This document shows, piece after piece, positions 4,875 through 57,100 of a DNA stretch of 64,000 nucleotides. Position numbers and translations under genes: made by a program. The stretch's first letter is position 1, and the number at the start of each line of letters is the position of its first letter. This DNA comes from a virus. Below the pieces are notes generated by a model, which saw nothing but the letters and a program-made list of their open reading frames with translations, was not told the origin of the DNA and searched no databases. The DNA lies in IMG/VR virus record IMGVR_UViG_3300010392_000400, positions 1 through 64,000 of that record; one strand, 5' to 3'.

Positions 4875-5864
4875 CTAGGTGATTTCTGTCCACCCAGTGT
4901 CTTCTTGATTTCGAAGTTGAGCCACGTATTCTTGTGGCGTAATTCCAAGATCGTCAATGATTTCCTTATCTTGGGCAGTAAGACGGTACGTCGTTTTACC
5001 CCTTCTTCGCGTAACACCTTGGCGACCCGTTCCACCTACAACAGGCTTTGTACGCTTGCGTGGCGCGGTCTCATCTTCACCTTCTTGGTCTTCGTGCGTA
5101 CTTTGGGTTCCTAAAGCTCCGAATCTAGCGTCGAGACGTTCGTTCAAAGTCTCGTAGTACTCTTCGGATTGTGGGTCTAGCCCTTCTCTCATAAGGACAG
5201 TTCCGAGATGAATAGCCCCCTGTTTTCGAATAGCTTCGTCTTGGTCCTTAGGCATGAAGAACCAGTCGTTGTCCTTAGCCCAATCTTGGGCCGCTTCAGG
5301 AACTTCTTCTTGTATCTGTGGGGCTCGTCTCTGAGGGGCTCTGCGAGCGGGAGGGACATTGGCTTCTTGGTAGTCCATGACTTCCATCCGAAGATTCGCC
5401 TTTGCTATTTCTTCAGAGACTCCAGCAGCTTTCTTGTACTCTCCTTGCTCCATAAGTTGGGCTTGAGATTCCTTTAGGTCTTCTAGACGATCCTTATACA
5501 CTTGCTTTTGGGTAGAGGCATTCGTTCTCGTCTGTTCCCGCATACGTTCCCCAAGGACAAAGTTCTCTTGCTCAGCCCTGTGTAAACGATCTTCCAGAGC
5601 TTTTCGCTCGTTGGCTAGCTTTCTAATTCTTTCTTGAGCTCTGGATTTCCTTGGTTTTTTCTTAGCTTTTTGGCCTTGGCCTTCTTCCTCAGAGTCACCA
5701 TCTTCCTTAGTCTGCTCTTTTTCTTGAGTGCCATCGTCTTCCCCTTCAAATATAATCGTAGGTCCTTCGTCTTTTTCTTCTGGGTTTAAAGAGATTTCTC
5801 CGTCATTCTCAGAGATAGAGTCTAAGTCCAGCTCTCCGTAGTCTTTGTTGTCTTTTCCGCTCAT
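4875..5864 (-). CDS. Scaffolding protein candidate
   Basis: A 329-aa, highly charged protein. Residues 1-70 are very acidic with runs of Glu and Asp. Residues about 70-150 form a predicted long coiled coil rich in Arg, Lys, Glu and Gln. Then come a globular region and a basic segment (RKRTKPVVGG) before the C-terminus. A helical, charged protein encoded just upstream of the capsid in a portal-scaffold-capsid order is the usual signature of an internal scaffold. It overlaps the co-chaperonin gene at 5864. Confidence 0.75.
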   Translation of the reverse strand: MSGKDNKDYGELDLDSISENDGEISLNPEEKDEGPTIIFEGEDDGTQEKEQTKEDGDSEEEGQGQKAKKKPRKSRAQERIRKLANERKALEDRLHRAEQENFVLGERMREQTRTNASTQKQVYKDRLEDLKESQAQLMEQGEYKKAAGVSEEIAKANLRMEVMDYQEANVPPARRAPQRRAPQIQEEVPEAAQDWAKDNDWFFMPKDQDEAIRKQGAIHLGTVLMREGLDPQSEEYYETLNERLDARFGALGTQSTHEDQEGEDETAPRKRTKPVVGGTGRQGVTRRRGKTTYRLTAQDKEIIDDLGITPQEYVAQLRNQEDTGWTEIT

Positions 5865-6331
5865 TACGTGTTCCTGTAGTTAGCCATGCCACCCCGAAGG
5901 TTGTCCATGGGATTGATTACGTCCGGTCCTTCTACTTGGAGTAAAAGTTCGTCGTCATTTAAAAGTATCAAAGTTACGCCTTGGACCCTTATCTTAGTTC
6001 CTGCGTGTTTGGACCAAACGACATAGTCGCCTACTCCTGGGACCACAGAATCGTCCCCAAACTTACCGTAAGGGTTCTTCGACCCTTTATTGATAGCGTC
6101 AAAATCTTTGAACGCCGTAGGGCCTACAGCGAGGATTCTCCCTACATTTGATAAGTACTGAATGTCTTGTTTGGTTTTGTCGGGTACAATGATACTACCG
6201 ACTTTTTCCTCGATTTTGTGGGGACGCACGAGGACATGGTACGTCATTAGTTTTGGTAAAGGACTTGGATCAGGTATCTTGTTGTCTGAAATCCAAGAGG
6301 TATTATTTGGCTCAAAAGCAGATGCTTCCAT
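5864..6331 (-). CDS. GroES-like co-chaperonin
   Basis: The 155-aa product carries the Cpn10 pattern. It has YHVLVRPHKIEE near the N-terminus, GSIIVPDKTK (mobile-loop region), VGRILAVGPTA, a GVGDYVVWSKHAGTKI block and ILLNDDELLLQVEG at the C-terminus. These match the order RPxxxE, GxIVPD, VGxVxAVG, GDxVxYxKxAGT and DDILA seen in GroES and phage relatives. Such proteins replace GroES on host GroEL and help fold the capsid, as T4 gp31 does. I chose ATG 6331, which has a GGAG site 8 nt upstream, over a longer TTG-initiated frame to 6427. Placement between portal and scaffold supports a capsid-folding role. Confidence 0.75.
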   Translation of the reverse strand: MEASAFEPNNTSWISDNKIPDPSPLPKLMTYHVLVRPHKIEEKVGSIIVPDKTKQDIQYLSNVGRILAVGPTAFKDFDAINKGSKNPYGKFGDDSVVPGVGDYVVWSKHAGTKIRVQGVTLILLNDDELLLQVEGPDVINPMDNLRGGMANYRNT

Positions 6332-10907: not shown

Positions 10908-11176
10908 CTATCGTTCTATCCTAGGAATACTTAGTATTCCTTCGTAAGGAATTCCTAAGAACCCCTAGGGGGTCCTTAGTGTTCCTTCGTAGTACCTTCT
11001 AGGGAGGTTAAGGACTTAGATATTCCTTGGAACTCCTTAGGGGGTACCTTAGGAATTCCTAGGAACCCCTCGGGCCTAAGACCCTTAGTATAACCTAGGA
11101 ATTCCTAGGTGTCAACCCCTAGCGTAACTAGGGCGCGATCCTCCCCCTCTTCGAGGGGTAATACACTAGGGAATCT
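10908..11176. other. CCTAGG-rich intergenic region between terminase genes
   Basis: This 269-bp gap has no credible ORF. It is packed with short palindromes and near-palindromes: CCTAGG, GGAATTCC, TTCCTTAGGAA and AACCCCTAGGGGG-like. It contains a promoter (11087-11115) and a 6-bp hairpin CCCCTC-TTC-GAGGGG at 11144-11158 just past the small terminase stop. The same vocabulary recurs at 13045-13250, 15932-16195 and 46221-46334. Confidence 0.7.
11087..11115 (-). promoter_or_regulatory. Strong sigma70-type promoter for the large terminase operon
   Basis: On the minus strand, TTGACA (11110-11115) and TATACT (11087-11092) are separated by exactly 17 bp. The spacer is CCTAGGAATTCCTAGGT, a 16-bp perfect palindrome plus one base. 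The -35 is a full consensus match and the -10 matches 5 of 6. It points at the large terminase and all downstream late genes. Confidence 0.8.
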
Positions 11177-13055: not shown

Positions 13056-13087
13056 AGAGCCCCCTAGGCCATCCCTAGGGGGCTTTG
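13056..13087 (+). terminator. Terminator hairpin, copy 1 of an exact 32-bp repeat
   Basis: An 11-bp perfect stem (AGCCCCCTAGG with CCTAGGGGGCT) and a 5-nt loop, followed by TTGTCTTAT. The 32 bp are repeated without change 78 bp downstream. It closes the two-gene early unit 12389-13044. Confidence 0.75.
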
Positions 13088-13133
13088 TCTTATCTAAGCC
13101 CCCTAGTACCAGAGACTAGCTAAGGGCCATCAC

Positions 13134-13165
13134 AGAGCCCCCTAGGCCATCCCTAGGGGGCTTTG
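13134..13165 (+). terminator. Terminator hairpin, copy 2 of an exact 32-bp repeat
   Basis: Identical to 13056-13087, followed by TTGCTTTG. Two tandem, identical hairpins suggest a strong transcriptional barrier or RNA 3'-end protection. Confidence 0.7.
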
Positions 13166-13940
13166 CTTTGCCTAGTGTCCTAATGACCCAAGGGTACTTT
13201 AGAGCTATTCCAGGTTTGCCTTAATGATACCTTAGTCTTGCCTTACTTATGCCACAAGTATGTGCTAGGTCCCTTGTGCCTTAGTTCTGACATGGTATTG
13301 CCTTGGAATAGTCTTAATTCATTCCTTGAATAACCTTAGGACCATTACCATTTAGATAGTGTCCCAAGGGGGACAAGTCGAACCCCAAGGGACAGCGGAA
13401 GGCCCGGTTAACCGCTTACAAAATTACCGAGCCAGTACAAGGGTTACTTAGTATGACCGAGCTTTCTTACGGGTTGGCATAAGGCTAGTCTAATGGGAAC
13501 GGCAAGGCTCTGGCTAAGGCGAAAGCTAAGGCTAATATGCTAGTGACTAGGGACACCTAGGCCTTAGGAAACTAAGGCATTTTGGCACTAGGTCCCGAAA
13601 CATGGATGCGGACATAATGTCCTAAGAGGCACCAAGTGTGTGCCTTATGGACAAGGCTCCCCCCTTGTGCTTTGGCCTATCGGCCTAAAGGAATTCCCAA
13701 GGGACCTAATCCCCCCTTGAGTTCCTTTAGAAGGATAAAGTCTCTTAGGTATCTCCTACAGGGACTAGGCTAAGGATGTCCCCTCTAATACCCCTAGAAA
13801 ATAACCATAAAAAGAGCACAAGGCACAACCCTTAGACCTAGTCCCCGTCGGGGATATCTAAGGATATTCCCAAGGCGGCAACAGTTTGACCCACGGAATA
13901 ACCTTTGGGTTGGGCGTTGCCACACCAGGCGGAGGATATT
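13166..13940. other. Long noncoding region dense in hairpins
   Basis: About 775 bp without a credible ORF. Visible structures: GCCTTAG-GAAA-CTAAGGC with a GNRA tetraloop then ATTTT (13561-13578); AGGCAC/GTGCCT (near 13627-13645); and a nested pair with outer CTAAAGGAA/TTCCTTTAG (13685-13693 and 13722-13730) and inner CAAGGG/CCCTTG (13698-13703 and 13714-13719). GCGG...CCGC surrounds GGTTAACC near 13394-13414. The segment 13360-13560 has phase-free codon statistics and stops in all plus frames. It may hold one or more small RNAs or a replication signal. Confidence 0.5.
13561..13583 (+). terminator. GNRA-loop hairpin, probable terminator
   Basis: A perfect 7-bp stem GCCTTAG/CTAAGGC with a GAAA tetraloop, followed by ATTTTGG. 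It lies within noncoding DNA, so it probably ends a noncoding transcript from upstream. Confidence 0.55.
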
Positions 13941-14621: not shown

Positions 14622-14653
14622 TATCCTATGGATAGCTTTAGGAAGGAATTCCT

Positions 14654-14833
14654 ATGTCTCACCTTATCATCTCAGGTATTGTGACCTTCTGTATCTTCGT
14701 GTACCTGTTGTTTCTCATAGTGGGTTGGATTAGCTTCATGCACATGATGTATACATTTGTTAAGTTCTTGGTAAGAAAGTACCTAGTCATACAAAGGCAC
14801 AAGGAAGGAATTCCTATGTCTGACCTTAAGTAA
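14654..14833 (+). CDS. Small single-pass membrane protein
   Basis: A 59-aa protein with AAGGAATTCCT upstream of ATG 14654. Residues about 4-40 are strongly hydrophobic (LIISGIVTFCIFVYLLFLIV), followed by a basic C-terminal tail (VRKYLVIQRHKEG). One or two closely spaced membrane helices. Probably an inner-membrane early protein; function unknown. Confidence 0.6.
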   Translation: MSHLIISGIVTFCIFVYLLFLIVGWISFMHMMYTFVKFLVRKYLVIQRHKEGIPMSDLK

Positions 14834-25234: not shown

Positions 25235-25272
25235 GGAAATACTCAGATACCAAGCTAACTAAAGGAATACCT

Positions 25273-27054
25273 ATGGAAAAATCCTACGGGCGCACCGTAG
25301 AACAGCACCTTCCCTGTTGGGACTGTGATTCTTCGGATGCCGCTGCCATATATCAAGACGCTAAAGACCCCTCTCGGTACTACGGCAAATGTTACAGCAA
25401 CGATTGTACTAAACAATTCACAGAAGAAGAGGCCCTCAAATACGTCGAAGACGTCAAGGGAACCAGGGTATCCGCACCCAAGGTTAATTCCTCTATTGCG
25501 GATGAACTACCTGAGTTCAAGAAACCCCCAGCCCCTATCAGAGGAATCCCTACAGACGTCCTCTCTCGGTACAAAGTAGATTGGTTCAAGAAGGACGACG
25601 GCTCCCTCGTAGCTCACAACTATCGCTACGGTACTAAGACCGACAAGGGGTGGGAGTATACGTGCATCAAGCACAGGTACGCTAACAAGGAGTTCCGTTG
25701 GACCAAGCTAACTCAGGAATCTCCTAGAGAAGCTGGGTTCTTTGGCCAAGGGTGTTCCTTTGAACCTTCGAAGTCTGTGATGATTACCGAGGGTGAGATC
25801 GACGCCATGAGTGCGTACCATCTGCTAGATCATAAGATGCCCGTGGTGTCCTTAAAGAACGGTGCTGGGGACGTAAGGGTTAACGAGTCCCAGAAAGAAT
25901 TCCTGGACAAGTTCGAGTTAATCTACCTGTGCTTTGACATGGACGACAACGGAGAGACGGCTGCTAAGAGATTCTCTCAAGCGTTTCCCCCGTCCAAAAT
26001 ACGTGTAGTCCACTTAGAAGGGGTTAAGGACGCTAACCAAGCCCTCCTTCACGGACGACGTAAGCAGTTCAACATGTCCGTTGCCATGTCCACCTCTGTG
26101 ATCCGAGAAGGGTTCATCCTAGGTAAGGACACGAAGAAGTATCTCTTTGAAGAGCCTGAGAAACTCCACGAGTACCCGTGGAAAGGTCTCAACGACATGT
26201 GCTACGGCATCTCCGATGCTGGGGAACTCATCGTGCTTCTCTCTGGTTCTGGCTCTGGCAAGACGACGATCCTAAAGACACTAGCTCTGCATTACTTCCA
26301 CACTACTCCGTGGACTATCGGCACTATGTTCTTCGAGGAGAACGCCAAGAAGAAAACAATCAGGCTCATGTGTGGTATGCACATAGGAAAGAACCAAGCT
26401 CTGCCTGACATACGGGAAGAGACGACAGACGAAGAAATCGGGGAAGCTTGGGACGCTGTCTTTGACAACGACAGGTGGGTTATCAAGGACAAGTGGGGTT
26501 CCGAGGACACCAGCGCTATCATCGACACCATCAGGTACATGGTAGTGAACTTCGGAGTTAAGCTCATTCTCCTCGACCACCTTAGTATCATCTTTTCAGG
26601 GTCCACAGACGCTAACGAGCGTAAGGCTATTGACAAGCTCATGACGGACCTTAGAACCCTCATAGATGAACTAGAGTTCTCTGTAGTAGCTGTGTGCCAT
26701 CTTACCAAGAAGAACGACGGACTAGGCCACGAAGAAGGAGCCCGAGTAGGTCTTAAAGATGCTCGGGGTGCTGGGTCTATCTACCAACTAGCAGACACAG
26801 TCCTAGGGGCAGAGAGAAACCAGCAAGATGAGAGCAAAGCCCACAGGCTCCTAATTCTCCTCAGGGTTCTGAAGAGCCGTACTTCGGGAGAAACCGGGCC
26901 AGCAACCCGGCTCGGGTGGAACAAGGCCAAGGGGCTCTTAAGGGAAATATCTGAGGACGATTTCAAGACCTTGAACGGAATCCCAGACCCCATAGAACAG
27001 ATTATGTTTGTAGAAGGAGACTACGATGACCAAGGAAATGCTGAAAACGGGTGA
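25273..27054 (+). CDS. Primase-helicase (T7 gp4-type)
   Basis: A 593-aa protein. ATG 25273 has AAAGGAA upstream; the in-frame site at 25201 falls inside the previous gene. Domain order is full-length gp4: zinc-binding domain (Cys15, Cys18, Cys40, Cys45), TOPRIM primase (ITEGEIDAMSA near residue 174; CFDMDDNGETA near 221), linker, then DnaB/RecA helicase with Walker A LLSGSGSGKTTI near 325, Walker B LILLDH near 431, and a conserved VVAVCHLTKK segment. It unwinds DNA 5'-3' and primes lagging-strand synthesis, working with the polymerase encoded downstream. Confidence 0.92.
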   Translation: MEKSYGRTVEQHLPCWDCDSSDAAAIYQDAKDPSRYYGKCYSNDCTKQFTEEEALKYVEDVKGTRVSAPKVNSSIADELPEFKKPPAPIRGIPTDVLSRYKVDWFKKDDGSLVAHNYRYGTKTDKGWEYTCIKHRYANKEFRWTKLTQESPREAGFFGQGCSFEPSKSVMITEGEIDAMSAYHLLDHKMPVVSLKNGAGDVRVNESQKEFLDKFELIYLCFDMDDNGETAAKRFSQAFPPSKIRVVHLEGVKDANQALLHGRRKQFNMSVAMSTSVIREGFILGKDTKKYLFEEPEKLHEYPWKGLNDMCYGISDAGELIVLLSGSGSGKTTILKTLALHYFHTTPWTIGTMFFEENAKKKTIRLMCGMHIGKNQALPDIREETTDEEIGEAWDAVFDNDRWVIKDKWGSEDTSAIIDTIRYMVVNFGVKLILLDHLSIIFSGSTDANERKAIDKLMTDLRTLIDELEFSVVAVCHLTKKNDGLGHEEGARVGLKDARGAGSIYQLADTVLGAERNQQDESKAHRLLILLRVLKSRTSGETGPATRLGWNKAKGLLREISEDDFKTLNGIPDPIEQIMFVEGDYDDQGNAENG

Positions 27055-30699: not shown

Positions 30700-31563
30700 G
30701 TGACCCTTAAGAAAAACTTGGGAACTCTTCTCCCTGATATCCACAGGATATTTGAAGGACCCCACGAAGTTAGCGAAGAAAACCTTGACCTCTTGGCCGA
30801 GAACGTCAAGGAAACAATACGTAGAGCCGTGCAGGAAGCCGGTGTCCCACGCGACTCTACGCTGAGAATGTCCGTACTGGGCACTCCCAACCGCAAACTG
30901 TGGTACTCCATGAAATATCCCAAGGAAGCCGAAGAGTCTTTGGCTGCACAGCAGCACATTAACTTTTGCTATGGGCATATCATAGAAGAGTTCCTCCTTT
31001 TCTTAGTCCGCGAGGCAGGACACGAGGTTGCTAACGAACAAAAGGAAGTCGAAGTCAACGGTGTCGTAGGGCACATTGACTGCGAAATTGACGGAGTCCC
31101 CGTAGATGTCAAGAGTGCGTCTGAGTGGGGTTTCAAGAAATTCAAAGATGGCAACCTACTCCGAGGGGACGATCCTTATGGGTACGTACACCAGATATCC
31201 GGGTACACAAATGCCCTTGGGAAGAACGAAGGCGCGTTCGTTGTAATGAACAAGAACCGAGGGGAGCTATGCGTCTTGGAGGTTCCTTCGTTCTTTATCG
31301 AAGACACGCCCAAGCGTATCGACGAAATCCGAGACGTCCTAGACAAAGAAGAAGTTCCTCCACGGTGTTACGACGACCAACCCTTTGGGAAAGCTGGTAA
31401 CCGAGAGCTAGTTATGTCGTGTGTGTTCTGCCCCTTCAAGTTCAAGTGTTGGCCTGAGACAAGGGTCTTCAGGTACTCAGATAAAGACAGGTTCCTCACC
31501 ACGGTGGTGTCGAAGCCTAAGGTAGACGAAGTTACTCAAGGGTACAAGGACGAGCTAACATGA
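30700..31563 (+). CDS. PD-(D/E)XK exonuclease (Cas4/RecB-like fold)
   Basis: A 287-aa protein starting at GTG 30700 with AAGGAG 8 nt upstream. The nuclease core has GHIDCEIDGVPVDVKSAS (Asp, then Asp-x-Lys) followed by YVHQISGYTNALG, the Q-x-x-x-Y motif of RecB-type nucleases. A C-terminal cluster (CVFCPFKFKCW, with an upstream PPRCYD) gives four Cys that could hold an iron-sulfur cluster as in Cas4 and AddB. It likely replaces T7 gp6 as the 5'-3' exonuclease for recombination and host-DNA breakdown. Confidence 0.8.
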   Translation: MTLKKNLGTLLPDIHRIFEGPHEVSEENLDLLAENVKETIRRAVQEAGVPRDSTLRMSVLGTPNRKLWYSMKYPKEAEESLAAQQHINFCYGHIIEEFLLFLVREAGHEVANEQKEVEVNGVVGHIDCEIDGVPVDVKSASEWGFKKFKDGNLLRGDDPYGYVHQISGYTNALGKNEGAFVVMNKNRGELCVLEVPSFFIEDTPKRIDEIRDVLDKEEVPPRCYDDQPFGKAGNRELVMSCVFCPFKFKCWPETRVFRYSDKDRFLTTVVSKPKVDEVTQGYKDELT

Positions 31564-31778
31564 TGGACTCACAAAGGCTAAGCAAGGTCTTAGACCAATT
31601 AAGCAAGGCTGGAAATGGTATGGGTACAAGAAACCCTGATGATTACACGTTTATGTTGACAGTTGGTGAGGCAATCGCCCTACGGGACTATATCTCTAGG
31701 CTTAAGGACAAGGAACGTATCTTAGACAGTCAAGGGAGTTCCGAGGCGGATTGGTTCTTTAATGAAATTCCAAAGTAA
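31560..31778 (+). CDS. Small hypothetical protein
   Basis: A 72-aa protein overlapping the nuclease stop (ACATGATG). Helical composition. Its last codons (encoding NEIPK and the TAA) lie inside the first copy of the 32-bp repeat, which is the duplicated start of the endonuclease gene. So in the ancestral order this gene ended inside the endonuclease start. Confidence 0.55.
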   Translation: MMDSQRLSKVLDQLSKAGNGMGTRNPDDYTFMLTVGEAIALRDYISRLKDKERILDSQGSSEADWFFNEIPK

Positions 31779-31793
31779 ATTTGAAGAAGTTAC
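31762..31793 (+). repeat. Direct repeat, upstream copy of the endonuclease gene 5' end
   Basis: Exact 32-bp match to 32136-32167, the first 32 bases of the endonuclease gene. Here it encodes the start MKFQSKFEEV and then diverges (ending at a TGA after 19 codons), giving a truncated pseudocopy whose stop overlaps the next start at 31818. It also carries the stop of the 31560 gene. Confidence 0.9.
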
Positions 31794-31817
31794 CGATGGG
31801 TACAAGGATACTATGAA

Positions 31818-32117
31818 ATGAAATGGAAAGATCGAAGAGTTATTTGTAGAGAGCATCTGTTTAAAGAAGGTGTCCCAGCGCCCTTCGCACTGTTACCTTA
31901 TAGAATAGGAGATACATGGTATTGGCTTTGTACTCCTAACTATAGGCGTTACGCATATACCACAGATAGTGATGGTGGCTGGGATGCTAACCTGTATAAA
32001 CACAATGAAACAGGGAAATCTTCCTATGGAGCACATTTTCCCAGTAACTTAGCTATACCTCTACTACTTCTAAGTACGGTCGTTGTTGTAATAGGAGGCT
32101 TATCTTTAGGTGGGTAA
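31818..32117 (+). CDS. Membrane protein encoded by an inserted gene
   Basis: A 99-aa protein with a soluble Trp/Tyr-rich N-terminal part (IGDTWYWLCTPNYRRYAY) and a C-terminal membrane helix (AIPLLLLSTVVVVIGG). It is the only gene between the two copies of the 32-bp repeat. A/T-richer third positions than its neighbours. The ATG overlaps the stop of the truncated endonuclease copy (ATGAAATGAAATGG). Unknown function. Confidence 0.6.
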   Translation: MKWKDRRVICREHLFKEGVPAPFALLPYRIGDTWYWLCTPNYRRYAYTTDSDGGWDANLYKHNETGKSSYGAHFPSNLAIPLLLLSTVVVVIGGLSLGG

Positions 32118-32135
32118 AATGCAACGTAATTTTCT

Positions 32136-32167
32136 ATGAAATTCCAAAGTAAATTTGAAGAAGTTAC
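32136..32167 (+). repeat. Direct repeat, functional copy (endonuclease start)
   Basis: Second copy of the 32-bp repeat; here it is the real 5' end of the endonuclease gene. Confidence 0.9.
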
Positions 32168-32534
32168 TTACGCAGTTCTCAAAGCCTTCAAAGGCATACT
32201 CGTAGGGTACGAAACAGAGAAATTGTACTATGCAATTCCAGCTAGGAAAGCTCAGTACACTCCTGACTTTATCCTAGAGAATAAAGCAAAGACCAAGAAG
32301 GTTTACATAGAGACTAAGGGGTACATGCGTCCTACGGACAGAGTTAAAATGCTACGGGTTAAGCGCAGTCATCCCGACTTGGATATCCGTATGATCTTCC
32401 AACGTGACAACAAGATTAAGGGAACTAAGATGAACTACTCAGATTGGGCAGTTCGTCACGGGTTTCCCTACGCCATCGGAGAAAAGGACGAGGTGATCAA
32501 GATTTGGGCTAAGGAACTACGAAAGGAAAGCTAA
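32136..32534 (+). CDS. Endonuclease I, Holliday-junction resolvase (T7 gp3-like)
   Basis: A 132-aa nuclease with the T7 gp3 active-site layout: Glu8/Glu9 (FEEV), Asp44 (YTPDFIL), Glu59 and Lys61 (YIETKGYM), followed by the RVKRSHPDLDIRMIFQR block that matches the HPELDIRIVF block of gp3. It resolves branched DNA and helps degrade host DNA. The first 32 bp are an exact direct repeat of 31762-31793. Overlaps the next gene by 1 nt. Confidence 0.88.
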   Translation: MKFQSKFEEVTYAVLKAFKGILVGYETEKLYYAIPARKAQYTPDFILENKAKTKKVYIETKGYMRPTDRVKMLRVKRSHPDLDIRMIFQRDNKIKGTKMNYSDWAVRHGFPYAIGEKDEVIKIWAKELRKES

Positions 32535-36539: not shown

Positions 36540-36841
36540 TGTCCACAAAAGAACCAAGAGTTCGCCTTAACCAACCTGAGCAAGAACTGTACGAAGCAGA
36601 CCTCGAAAAAGCGTTCATCCAATTTAACAATATCCGTGTAGGACGTTGGGAAATCAAAGAACACGACGAATTCGACAGAGTCTTTGCACGTATCATGAAC
36701 AAGTCACCCTACGACCTCACAGGTCCTTTAACCTTTACTAACTGTGTGACCGGTGATGTTTTTATTATTTCCCCTAGTATGTCAATGTGTGTTGCTGCGG
36801 GATTCGATAAGGACACAGTAGGCACTGGACTTGACCACTAA
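36539..36841 (+). CDS. Small hypothetical protein
   Basis: A 100-aa protein overlapping the DUF3310 gene by 1 nt and the next gene by 11 nt. N-terminal helix (QELYEADLEKAFIQFNNI) and beta-rich C-terminal half (GPLTFTNCVTGDVFIISPS). Unknown. Confidence 0.55.
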   Translation: MSTKEPRVRLNQPEQELYEADLEKAFIQFNNIRVGRWEIKEHDEFDRVFARIMNKSPYDLTGPLTFTNCVTGDVFIISPSMSMCVAAGFDKDTVGTGLDH

Positions 36842-37655
36842 TGAGCATCTCCACGCCTTCCTTGGATACGACGAAAAGCAAGACCTCGCGTGGGAAGTCT
36901 GCGCAGAATCCATCCGTCAAAGCGCTTCAAGGCCTGTATCCATTCACAAGTTGGACCATAGAATGCTACGGGACCTTGGATTGTTCGACCGGGAGTGGGT
37001 CGTCGAAGGAAAAACCGGAAGGTACAAAGACACCGGAGACGGAAAGCCAGCCAGTACTCAGTTTTCGCACAGCAGGTTCTTGGTTCCTGCACTGGTAAAG
37101 CACCTTGGCATTAACCAAGCGCACAACGCTTTGTTTGTTGACTCAGACTTCGTGTTTCTTGATGACCCCTATGAGTTGCTCTGGGAGTGTGGTCTTACCG
37201 AAGGCAATCATACACAGTTCCCCGTACACGTAGTCAAGCATGAGTACAACCCGGACAAGGGTCTTAAGATGGACGGACAAGTCCAAGTACCCTATGCCAT
37301 GAAACTCTGGAGTTCCTTGATGGTCTTTAACCTGAGGGACCCAAGAATCTACGACCTCACAGCGAACAAGGTTAATACTATGACTGGTAGGGACCTCCAC
37401 CAGTTCCAGTGGCTTAACCCTAAGAAAGACCCTCTCTGGAACAGTGATAATTTCTTAGGTAGAATCTCGGAACGGTGGAACTTTATCCCAGACCACTCAG
37501 AACCTAGAGTACCTGAGAAGGACATAGGGGCCGTACACTGGACAGAAGGCATTCCTTCTATTCCTGGGTACTCAAATTGTAAGTACGCAGATATGTGGAA
37601 TGACGTGTGTCGCAAAGTGTACCGCACCAAACTAAAGATGGATTTTTATGAATAA
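36831..37655 (+). CDS. Glycosyltransferase (GT-A fold, GT8-like)
   Basis: A 274-aa protein with a TTG start (36831); the conserved N-terminus HAFLGYDEKQDLAWEVCAES starts within a few codons, so an internal ATG (36963) would remove it. The DxD metal site is NALFVDSDFVFL near residue 104. SSLMVFNLRDPRI and a HW motif near the C-terminus (VHWTEGIPS) also fit. Its stop overlaps the start of a truncated copy of the 37929 gene. Confidence 0.75.
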   Translation: MTTNEHLHAFLGYDEKQDLAWEVCAESIRQSASRPVSIHKLDHRMLRDLGLFDREWVVEGKTGRYKDTGDGKPASTQFSHSRFLVPALVKHLGINQAHNALFVDSDFVFLDDPYELLWECGLTEGNHTQFPVHVVKHEYNPDKGLKMDGQVQVPYAMKLWSSLMVFNLRDPRIYDLTANKVNTMTGRDLHQFQWLNPKKDPLWNSDNFLGRISERWNFIPDHSEPRVPEKDIGAVHWTEGIPSIPGYSNCKYADMWNDVCRKVYRTKLKMDFYE

Positions 37656-37692
37656 GTATCACGTAGTAACATCGTTCTCAGATAAGCTTTGA
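37648..37692 (+). pseudogene. Truncated duplicate of the 5' end of the 37929 glycosyltransferase gene
   Basis: ATG 37648 begins MNKYHVVTSFSDKL and ends at TGA 37690-37692. The 45 bp 37654-37698 match 37935-37979 with two differences; one difference is the premature stop (TGA against TGG). The next 45 bp (37693-37737) hold no gene. This is the left-hand scar of a gene insertion. Confidence 0.85.
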
Positions 37693-37737
37693 AAAAGTGG
37701 TGTACGAAAGACTAGCAAAGGAATAGTAAGAAATACT

Positions 37738-37932
37738 ATGGAATATGACTACGAAGTAACAGCTGGACAGATGATTGTCTGGTGCATTATTTTCCTTCCC
37801 ATCTTCTTTGTGATGGCCCCTGTTTTTTTCCTTTGGTGCTTAGCCCTTTTAGGCATTACCTTTGCGGGTTTTCTCCTAATTGCCACCCTTGGCGCTAAGA
37901 TAGACAAGATTCTGGAAAGGAACTCTAAGTGA
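37738..37932 (+). CDS. Membrane protein encoded by an inserted gene
   Basis: A 64-aa protein lying between the truncated and complete copies of the glycosyltransferase 5' end. Two closely packed hydrophobic spans (MIVWCIIFLPIFFVMAPVFF; WCLALLGITFAGFLLIATLG). A charged C-terminus (KIDKILERNSK) overlaps the next GTG start. Unknown function. Confidence 0.6.
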   Translation: MEYDYEVTAGQMIVWCIIFLPIFFVMAPVFFLWCLALLGITFAGFLLIATLGAKIDKILERNSK

Positions 37933-38804
37933 CCAAGTACCACGTAGTAACATCGTTCTCAGATAAGCTTTGGAAAAGTTACGCTCAACATACTGTCCCT
38001 AGTGTCTACGCTAACCTCCCCGAGGGGGTTGGCCTCACAGTGTGGTACAACGGGGACTATGATCCCAAGTGGAAAGAAGCTCTGCCTGAGGCGGAGTTCA
38101 AAGACCTTAACGCTGTGGCAGACTACCAGTACTACCGCCAGAAGTACAAGGGAGTCCAAGCTCCCGAAGGAGTCGAAGAAGGACACAAGTTTCGCTTCGA
38201 CCACCTTCCCTTCTGGAACAAGGTGTGCGCTCTGTACAAAGAAGCTATGGATTTGTTTGTACACGGTGCAGACTATGAATATCTTGTGTGGATCGACGCT
38301 GACGTTCTTTCCCAAAAGAAAATTCGAATTAAAGACTTCGACCGTTGGACTAACGATGCTGACGTAGCCACCTTGGTACGAGGAAAGCCTTGGAATACTT
38401 GGGACACTGGATTCTTAGCTATTCGTTGGAATGCGCTTAAACTTGTTGAAGAGGTCTTTGACCTGTACATGAGTGGACGTATCTTTGACCACAACGAGTG
38501 GCACGATGCGTACTTGTTCACAGTGATGTACAAGAGATACAAGGAAGACCTTAGGCTCAAAGACCTTAACATGATGTCCTCCTCTGCTCACCCCTTTGAC
38601 TCTTCGATCCTTCCTCCGTATCTCATGCACCTTAAGGGCCCTAGGAAGAAGACCTTGGAAATTCTAGACCCCCGCTCTCTCAACGGGGTGTTTACTTCGC
38701 TCTACACAGGGGTCATAAACGAGAGGAAAGAGACCGTAGGAACCCTAAAGGAAAACGGAGACATTGTTCACCCCAATGGGGGCATAAGGAGTATCTATGA
38801 GTAA
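37929..38804 (+). CDS. Glycosyltransferase-like protein
   Basis: A 291-aa protein with GTG start overlapping the previous TGA (AAGTGACC). The region around YLVWIDADVL (Asp-Ala-Asp near residue 123) is a GT-A DxD motif, followed by WNTWDTGFLAIRW and DHNEWHDAYLF. Similar proteins without assigned substrate are found in marine phage genomes. The duplicated start shows it once overlapped the upstream glycosyltransferase. Confidence 0.7.
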   Translation: MTKYHVVTSFSDKLWKSYAQHTVPSVYANLPEGVGLTVWYNGDYDPKWKEALPEAEFKDLNAVADYQYYRQKYKGVQAPEGVEEGHKFRFDHLPFWNKVCALYKEAMDLFVHGADYEYLVWIDADVLSQKKIRIKDFDRWTNDADVATLVRGKPWNTWDTGFLAIRWNALKLVEEVFDLYMSGRIFDHNEWHDAYLFTVMYKRYKEDLRLKDLNMMSSSAHPFDSSILPPYLMHLKGPRKKTLEILDPRSLNGVFTSLYTGVINERKETVGTLKENGDIVHPNGGIRSIYE

Positions 38805-54181: not shown

Positions 54182-57100
54182 CTATTGTAGTCCATTTCTA
54201 TTTTCGAGTTCCCTCTGGATGTTCGCGGCAAGCTGCTCAGGAGGGATTCCTTCAGAGTACACCTCTCTAGGTATACCTGCTGCATCTAGGTACTGCAAGA
54301 GGGTTCCTATACGGGCGTTCTCTGGAATACTCGGGTCATTTAAGAGAGCGGAGACAAAGTCGTGGGCCCTCGTTGGGCTGCTTAGAACTTCGTTAAACAT
54401 AGAGTCTCTCTGAGAACGTCTCTGAGCTACCTCTGCCATAGCCTCTTCTCTTTGGGCTCTTTCGTGTTGAGCCCTTGCTATCTCCAGAGCTTCCCTTCGC
54501 ATATCGTTGTCTTGCTTTCGTCGCTGAGCTTGCATAATAGACTGCTGTTCTTGAGCTTGCTGTTCCTGTGCCCTTGCTTGTTCTTGTGAAATATGGTTTA
54601 TGGCTGGCCCTGCACCTTCTGTGGCCATAAGGAGTCCACCTTGAACTAGGTCCCAACGAATTCTGTCTAACCAAGAAGGTTCTTTTTTAGAGTTTCCTTG
54701 GGGCTTCCTTAGCATTTCTTCTGCCATTTCCTCTAACGGGGACCCTCCTGCTTCTACGGGTTCTGGGTCCTCGTACGAAGGCCACTGGGGTCTTTGCACG
54801 GGCCTCGCCATAGGACCCTGGTAAGGTCCTGGCTCTTGGCCCCCTGTTAAGTACGATGGGAGATTCCTAGGAGGTTCTCCGTATGTTGCTAAAGGATTTT
54901 CTGAAGCTCTCCCCATGTCCATTGGGACATTAGTAGGAACTCCGTACATACCTGTGTTAACCCCAAGCATGTTATTAATTCTGTCCATAGGGTTCAACTG
55001 GTCTAGGACTCTTAGACCACCATCGGCAAAGCCTTGGACCTCTCCCCCGTCCTTGAAGCTCGAAGACCCACCTTGGCCTTCTTGTTTCCAAAAGTCGAAG
55101 GGACTTCCACCGCCTTGTCCAGCAAGGAAGTCTTCCCCGAAGTTTACGTTCATGCCTTGCCATCCGAAGTTCTGACCCATGCCTCCTTGTTGCTGTTGTT
55201 GCCCACCTTGTCCACGTTGTGGTCCAACAGGTTCCATTGGGTGGCTAATCTGAGGGACATCTGCTGATACAATAGGGGCCGCAGGTTTAAATGTACCACT
55301 TTGTAAAAGGCTCATAAGACCACCTTGGGGAATACCCATAGGGGGTGCCATGCCTTCCATAGCACTCATGGGATTCTGTTGGAGGCCCATTGGAGAACCT
55401 CCAGTGGGGTTAAAGCCCGGTGCGTTCCAACCTGCTTCAGCAATTCCGTAGTTCACGTTCCCAGCATCCCTTATTTGGGGTTGGAAGGACCCTTCTCTCA
55501 TTTGTCTTTGGTAGACACCGGGTGGTGTTATTTGTTGCCCACTGTGTCCGTACCCTGTGTACCCTGTGCTTCCTGCACGGAGGACTTGGCCACCATCAGC
55601 AAATCTTAGTCTAGCTTCCCTATTTTCCTGAGTGTTATAGTAACCTTCGTAGTCAGGGTCTGTTCCAAAGTATCGTCCAAGGTCTTCTTCATTCCTTTGG
55701 CGAAGAAGGGTGTTAAGAGGTGTTGGGTCTTCTTGGTTATTTACGATGCTTATAATTGAATCAGCTAAGTACTCATCTTCCTCGGTATAAGGAAAATTTT
55801 CTTTGTAATACTCTGCTACTCTTTCTGAAATCCTTAGTGTATCTTCTTCACTAACTCCTCTTTCTCTTAAAACTCTTGCAAACTCCCCTGCTGCAGGGCT
55901 TACCCCTCTGACAATATCATAGTTGTACATATCACCTAAGGTATTTCGATAAGGCGTTTCATGACTTCCGTAGTAGTCATCCCTATTGCTTTCTGGTGAA
56001 ATCCCTTCTCTTTGGAGGATGCGAGACACAGCATAATTTAGGCTTTCTAGGTTTCGATAAAGGGAGTTTTCCTCTATTTGTTCTCGTTCCGAAAAGAAGA
56101 ATGGGTTGGAGGTTGAAGGGTCTCCGCCATCAGGGCCTCTATCATGTGGGAGTAGGCCTAGGGATTCAATGAGGGCTTGGGTGTCTCTAGCTCCTCTATC
56201 GTGTAGGTCATACCTAAGGAGCTTACCACCTTCGCCATCGTCAGGGTACCTTCCTGTACCAATAAGCCGCTCCAATTGAACCTTTCTAAGGTCTGTAGGA
56301 TTTCTAAAGTAATCGTTCATGAGGGGATACGCAAAATCCATTAAACCCCCTTGTTCCTGGACAGTATCGAAAGCCTCTTCCCAGGTTTCTTCATTATTAA
56401 AGGCCTCTGGGATTAGACCCCCTGAAAAGGTATAAGCCGGGTCAACTCTTTGGGGTACTCCACCTTTGTATTCGTCTGATACTAGACGACCAGAAACCCT
56501 TCCTCCATCTTGGTACGCTGGGTACCCTGTGCTTCCTGCACGGAGGACTTGGCCACCATCAGCAAACCTAGGTTGACCTTCAGAGTTTCTACGTGTATCT
56601 GAGATACGTCTTCCTAAGTGAACCGAGTTCTCTCCTGCGTATAAGTCTTCTATAATTTGGTCTGTGATCCCTCGGATTTGGGACTCACTTACGTCTTGGG
56701 CTCTTAGGGCGTCTGCGAAAGCACTAGAGTAAACGTCTCTGTCCCTTAATACATCTTCTGCAAAGATTTGACCAAGGTTGTCTCCGCCTTGGAGTCTAGA
56801 GTTGTCTAAGACAAGTCCTGCAGCAAAGGACAAGTAGTCCCTATCGTCTGTCCTTTGAAAATCTCTTAGAAGACCCCTGTTTTCCTCTGCACGTACCATG
56901 GCATCAAAAGGAGGGATTAGGGTAACAAAGTTATCTGCCATATCATCCCAGTCTTCCACTTCCCTTTGGGCGTATCTTCTTCTGCGGTCTCTCCCACGCT
57001 CACCTGCGTCCATGTATTCTTGGAGAATACGGTCTCTACCTGGATCAGACTCAGGGTATTCTTGCTGACCCCTTCGGTAGTTCACAGGGCCACCGTCTTG

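Follow-up and report, generated by a model that had tools for sequence, protein, structure and literature searches.

A duplicated endonuclease I start in a metagenomic phage as a probable scar of out-of-register exchange between gene junctions

How can a small gene come to lie between two overlapping genes with neither of them broken? This question is raised by a junction in the window (the whole stretch of DNA analysed, 64,000 nucleotides), where a gene for endonuclease I is preceded by a duplicate of its own start (Table 1). Positions 31762-31793 and 32136-32167 are identical at 32/32 bases, the first mismatch falling at base 33 (C versus T). Only these two copies were found in the 69,628-bp record, on both strands and with up to 3 mismatches allowed, and a reversed-pattern control searched in the same way across the whole record gave no matches. 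We estimate the chance of an exact 32-mer repeat in 64 kb to be of the order of 1e-10, and such a repeat is thus not expected. The duplication had been described in an earlier note on this DNA and is confirmed here, as are two further observations of that note: the stop of the 31560 gene (TAA, 31776-31778) is encoded within the upstream copy, where it overlaps the copy's ATG by 17 nt, and a single membrane-protein gene lies between the copies, its 99-residue product having one strong, C-terminal hydrophobic stretch. We conclude, with moderate confidence, that the junction is a recombination scar left by an out-of-register exchange between the gene junctions of two related phages.

Table 1 Features of the exonuclease/endonuclease I junction and of the second site, in window coordinates
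Feature	Position	Strand	Basis
Cas4-domain (PD-(D/E)XK) exonuclease gene	30700..31563	+	PHROG 1990 2e-39; alignment
72-aa gene without relatives (31560 gene)	31560..31778	+	ORF list; relative searches
Upstream duplicate of the endonuclease I start (32 bp)	31762..31793	+	sequence identity
Putative scar ORF, in frame, 19 codons, MKFQSKFEEVTDGYKDTMK*	31762..31821	+	endonuclease start fused to exonuclease-like tail
Exonuclease-tail-like segment, EVTDGYKDTMK*	31786..31821	+	sequence comparison, shuffles
99-aa cargo (membrane-protein) gene, no relatives	31818..32117	+	ORF list; relative searches
Six-codon ORF, MQRNFL*	32119..32139	+	ORF list
Endonuclease I gene, opening with the downstream copy (32136-32167, 32 bp)	32136..32534	+	profiles, alignment
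GT1, upstream glycosyltransferase-like gene, stop inside start copy	36831..37655	+	relatives
Upstream copy of GT2 start (ATGAATAAGTATCAC...), now a 14-codon ORF	37648..37698	+	repeat search
64-aa hydrophobic cargo gene, no relatives	37738..37932	+	ORF list, relative searches
GT2, downstream gene; 37935-37979 is the downstream copy core	37929..38804	+	repeat search, relatives

The two genes that frame the junction could be identified from profiles. The 30700 gene is assigned to the Cas4-domain exonucleases by its match to PHROG 1990 (2e-39), and a Pfam search returned no match for it. Its product has the C terminus KVDEVTQGYKDELT, of which the tail is EVTQGYKDELT; the gene's stop and the ATG that follows overlap as ATGA. 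The 32136 gene matches both Pfam Phage_endo_I (T7 gp3 type; 2e-23, 82.9 bits against a cut-off of 29.1) and PHROG 945 (7e-32), and the conserved P-D and E-x-K catalytic-type residues P43, D44, E59 and K61 are invariant in the endonuclease I alignment. Exonuclease and endonuclease I are kinds of gene that serve recombination in T7-like phages. Downstream of the membrane gene, the stop of the six-codon ORF overlaps the endonuclease I ATG (ATGA), an arrangement that could act as a coupling relay.

From the ATG of the upstream copy, the reading frame stays open past the repeat and into EVTDGYKDTMK*. In sequence, this segment resembles the tail of the upstream exonuclease, and it looks like a second exonuclease tail that would derive from a related phage. 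It overlaps the repeat over GAAGTTAC, which is common to the endonuclease start and the exonuclease tail (extended form GA.GAAGTTAC) and would be the point of crossover. Beyond the repeat, with the register fixed by the shared GAAGTTAC, the exonuclease tail is matched at 18/28 nucleotides, including a run of 11 (GGGTACAAGGA). About 7 of the 64,000 window positions match the tail equally well, and the probability at the predicted register is about 1e-4. A free local search in the exonuclease tail, using the nucleotides without the shared bases, gave p ~0.007, and 0/5000 shuffles reached the tail-match score when the shared GAAGTTAC was included. At the protein level the agreement is modest: the residues beyond the repeat alone gave p 0.015 against the window exonuclease tail, about 2% of random 7-mers scored equally against a profile of the relatives' exonuclease tails, and comparison with the individual relatives' tails gave no significant match; all of these figures bear on a hypothesis that was formed after the sequence had been seen. 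Aligned relatives show the C-terminal pattern of the exonuclease family to be P-x-V-x-E-[VI]-T with a short tail of variable sequence behind it. A degenerate DNA search of viral contigs for EVTxGYKD exonuclease tails returned 19 matches, none of them exonuclease-encoding. The stop of the tail-like segment overlaps the membrane-gene ATG by ATGA, just as the true exonuclease stop overlaps the start of the 31560 gene.

These features bear on a plain insertion, in which the membrane gene would have entered the overlap of the 31560 and endonuclease I genes from an unrelated source, the first 32 bp of endonuclease I being duplicated by staggered ends or replication slippage and the exonuclease-like tail being coincidental. 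Such a history is unlikely in our view: the left edge of the insert matches the exonuclease tail in register and in frame in this first case, and the ATGA overlap at the tail-like segment is typical of a gene end. It would nevertheless agree with the presence, at two sites in the window, of a duplicated start flanking an insert, and with a second site (below) at which the tail of the upstream gene is undetectable. The insertion proposed in the earlier note thus holds for the duplication and for the ancestral tightness of the junction, whereas as a mechanism it is incomplete, and its premise that insertion requires the shared bases to be copied finds no support in an insert that starts with an exonuclease-tail-like segment. 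Since the insert begins with an apparent second exonuclease tail, the start duplicate is better read as a by-product of an out-of-register crossover, retained because both neighbours stay intact.

No close relative of the phage was found: near-identical DNA was absent from 50,697 phage records, the best exonuclease match is 46% identical, the best endonuclease I matches are in the forties, and its ribonucleotide reductase reaches at most 63%. A genome-contig scan using endonuclease I gave two distant matches, and searches with the 31560 gene, the membrane gene and the second-site cargo gene found no relatives. The junction itself could be followed in 97 loci that hold both genes in order. In 59 of them the two genes abut or overlap, a tight class that includes Roseobacter phage SIO1 and Sinorhizobium phage phiM6; the spacing is 155 bp or more in 38, and no locus has a spacing of 31-120 bp. 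With tight loci, loci with inserts and none intermediate, the junction is tight as a rule and is a site of repeated gene gain. The comparison supports the view, already taken in the earlier note, that the ancestral junction was tight. That note had also predicted relatives in which a 31560-type gene ends inside endonuclease I; none was found, the 31560 gene having no detectable relative, and the junctions found in other phages are cargo-free or hold other cargo only. The 38 insert-bearing relatives contain no copy of the endonuclease start. Two weak tail matches among them, in AT-rich sequence, were disregarded.

In the exchange that we favour, two related phages would have held different small genes between exonuclease and endonuclease I. 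In phage A the exonuclease gene would have been followed by the 31560 gene and then by endonuclease I, the start of the latter enclosing the 31560 stop. In phage B the membrane gene would have stood in the place of the 31560 gene, its start overlapped by the exonuclease stop (ATGA). In a cell infected by both, the start of A's endonuclease I (...GAAGAAGTTAC) and the exonuclease tail of B (...GAAGTTAC...GGGTACAAGGA) would pair out of register over a homology of about 8-11 bp, and strand exchange or template switching would join the first 32 bp of endonuclease I from A to the exonuclease tail from B. Phage B would contribute this tail, the membrane gene and the endonuclease upstream region, and the exchange would either close at endonuclease I or run on through it. 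The product would contain the exonuclease, 31560, membrane and endonuclease I genes intact, with the 32-bp duplicate and the exonuclease-tail duplicate as leftovers. The leftover 19-codon ORF has stop/start overlaps at both ends, so that translational coupling across the junction could persist. A single exchange offset by one gene accounts for the overlaps and the frame as well as for the repeat and the tail-like segment, and the start of the downstream gene is indeed found duplicated to the left of the cargo (32/32).

Several points count against a crossover. Neither parent type, A or B, was found; the agreement of the tail-like segment is modest at the protein level; the 38 relatives with inserts have no copy of the endonuclease start; and no GT1 tail is detectable at the second site. 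In addition, the endonuclease starts are identical, yet the putative exonuclease tails differ at 36% of sites. This disparity (0/32 versus 10/28 differences) suggests that the exchange closed near the endonuclease start, or else local mosaicism; with early closure, both endonuclease starts would come from one parent and the exonuclease tails from two. The exact identity of the starts, from which the earlier note argued for a recent event, is a weak guide to age, as 0/32 differences bound divergence only to below about 9% and the tails have diverged visibly. Because the product is symmetrical, it does not tell the order in which the two cargo genes arrived, and because no cargo-gene relative was found, parents, direction and age stay unproven.

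The same disparity weighs against a tandem duplication within one lineage, in which the segment from exonuclease tail to endonuclease start was duplicated and the 31560 gene later took the place of the first cargo copy. This would place the same pieces in the same order in one genome (exonuclease tail, cargo, endonuclease start, exonuclease tail, cargo, endonuclease). However, the two exonuclease tails would then be expected to match as closely as the endonuclease starts do, whereas the values are 18/28 and 32/32; the 31560 and membrane genes are unrelated, and an extra replacement step is needed. We regard this history as very unlikely. The chance that the junction is an assembly artefact, two metagenome strains having been joined through the 32-bp repeat, also appears slight. 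The record is a metagenomic virus contig, for which strain mixtures are common, but the presumed parents share 8-11 bp at the upstream join, too little for an assembler, all reading frames are intact, and 6 kb away there is a second case, whose copies are imperfect. Finally, both copies precede or form gene starts, as would a regulatory element in front of the two genes, be it a promoter, an operator or an RNA structure. This explanation is barely credible for a repeat that has two copies only in the record, that consists of coding sequence from the endonuclease I start codon onwards with the upstream region excluded, and for which an Rfam search gave no match to RNA families.

Following the suggestion of the earlier note, an all-against-all repeat search was run on the window and returned eight direct repeats at the score used. 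One further pair, 37654-37698 and 37935-37979 (43/45 bases identical), has the same anatomy. GT1 ends within the upstream copy (TATGAATAA) and a relative (L030) has TATGAGTAA, so the upstream copy keeps the ancestral-type overlap; the first codons of the two copies differ (ATGAATAAG versus GTGACCAAG) and lie outside the shared core. The 17 relatives that have both genes all lack an insert, with GT1 abutting GT2 (-8 to +5 bases). That the duplication brackets inserted DNA, as the earlier note had it, is supported at both sites. Of the independent evidence that tight gene pairs take up inserts with duplication of a start, the second site is the strongest. A GT1-tail remnant at the left edge of the second-site insert was sought and not supported, which leaves the first case to carry the full mechanism.

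A broader reading would have small membrane-protein genes repeatedly entering overlapping pairs by a dedicated start-copying route that keeps overlap and coupling, with copied starts marking entry points genome-wide in this phage group; we consider it highly doubtful. A generality scan of 1.13 Mb of loci yielded one look-alike, in a distant relative (L096), where a 26-bp gene start (MTN[FI]TNEQ) is duplicated at 5440-5465 and 5900-5925 around two small genes and the stop of the upstream gene falls inside the first copy. The other rows of the scan were judged to be low-complexity, intragenic or repeated-domain matches.

The window contains other repeats. A palindromic motif resembling AAGGAATTCCTA matches at 38 places when up to 2 mismatches are allowed, where 6.8 would be expected; it occurs at 10946-11107, 14643-14816, 25262-25273 and elsewhere, in several instances just before an ATG, and may be an element for regulation or ribosome binding. 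Another small hydrophobic ORF, the third (14654-14833, 59 residues), is flanked by 27-bp repeats (14640-14666 and 14802-14828, 96% identical) that include a start codon, the downstream copy reading MSDLK*. This arrangement may be a third case or merely the recurring AAGGAATTCCTA motif. Two tandem 78-bp units at 13056-13211 share a 32-bp hairpin-like sequence, AGAGCCCCCTAGGCCATCCCTAGGGGGCTTTG, and are probably a duplicated terminator. A 69-bp repeat at 55550-55618 and 56513-56581 is 88% identical, its copies 963 bp apart.

Several known routes of gene gain resemble the junction in part. Morons are small ORFan gains at phage gene junctions; the insert is likewise a small gene without relatives between conserved genes, and differs in that its entry scar is visible. 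Amplification of T4 gene 17, attributed to work by Wu and Black in 1995, was reportedly a tandem event within one genome, linked to gp16. It shares with the present case an out-of-register exchange at short similar sequences in neighbouring genes, with the DNA between them duplicated, whereas two different cargo genes are combined here. A sequence-specific recombination box that amplifies T4 gene 17 is cited in PMC3012670. The T4-type PeSL promoter/stem-loop cassettes (Arbiol 2010, Comeau 2014, as described in PMC4503421) also place a short repeat at gene junctions and shuffle genes between phages. They are promoter-terminator motifs, however, in which an early promoter and a stem-loop form the repeated intergenic unit, whereas the repeat here begins at a start codon, is the coding sequence of the next gene and occurs only twice, and we therefore rejected this identity. 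Homeologous exchange by phage recombinases is documented in lambda, whose Red system recombines diverged DNA (PMC2327257). As in phage mosaicism by homeologous or illegitimate recombination of related but diverged phages, new joints lie at short or imperfect homology, often near gene ends; unlike lambda-type mosaicism, the exchange here would be offset by one gene, and both cargo genes and the duplicated gene start are kept. Our literature search turned up no relevant paper on genes that enter overlapping phage genes with duplication of a start.

The junction is thus an unusually well-preserved instance of ordinary phage mosaicism, and neither a new system nor a new mechanism. Phages constantly gain small genes, and the scars of their entry are usually lost. 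The scar described here illustrates how an overlapping gene pair can take in a gene with neither partner broken, and how two alternative cargo genes can stack at one junction, which makes it an instructive case for phage evolution. Since the junction is bimodal in relatives (no insert, or at least 155 bp), gene gain at this point could be followed in phage populations.
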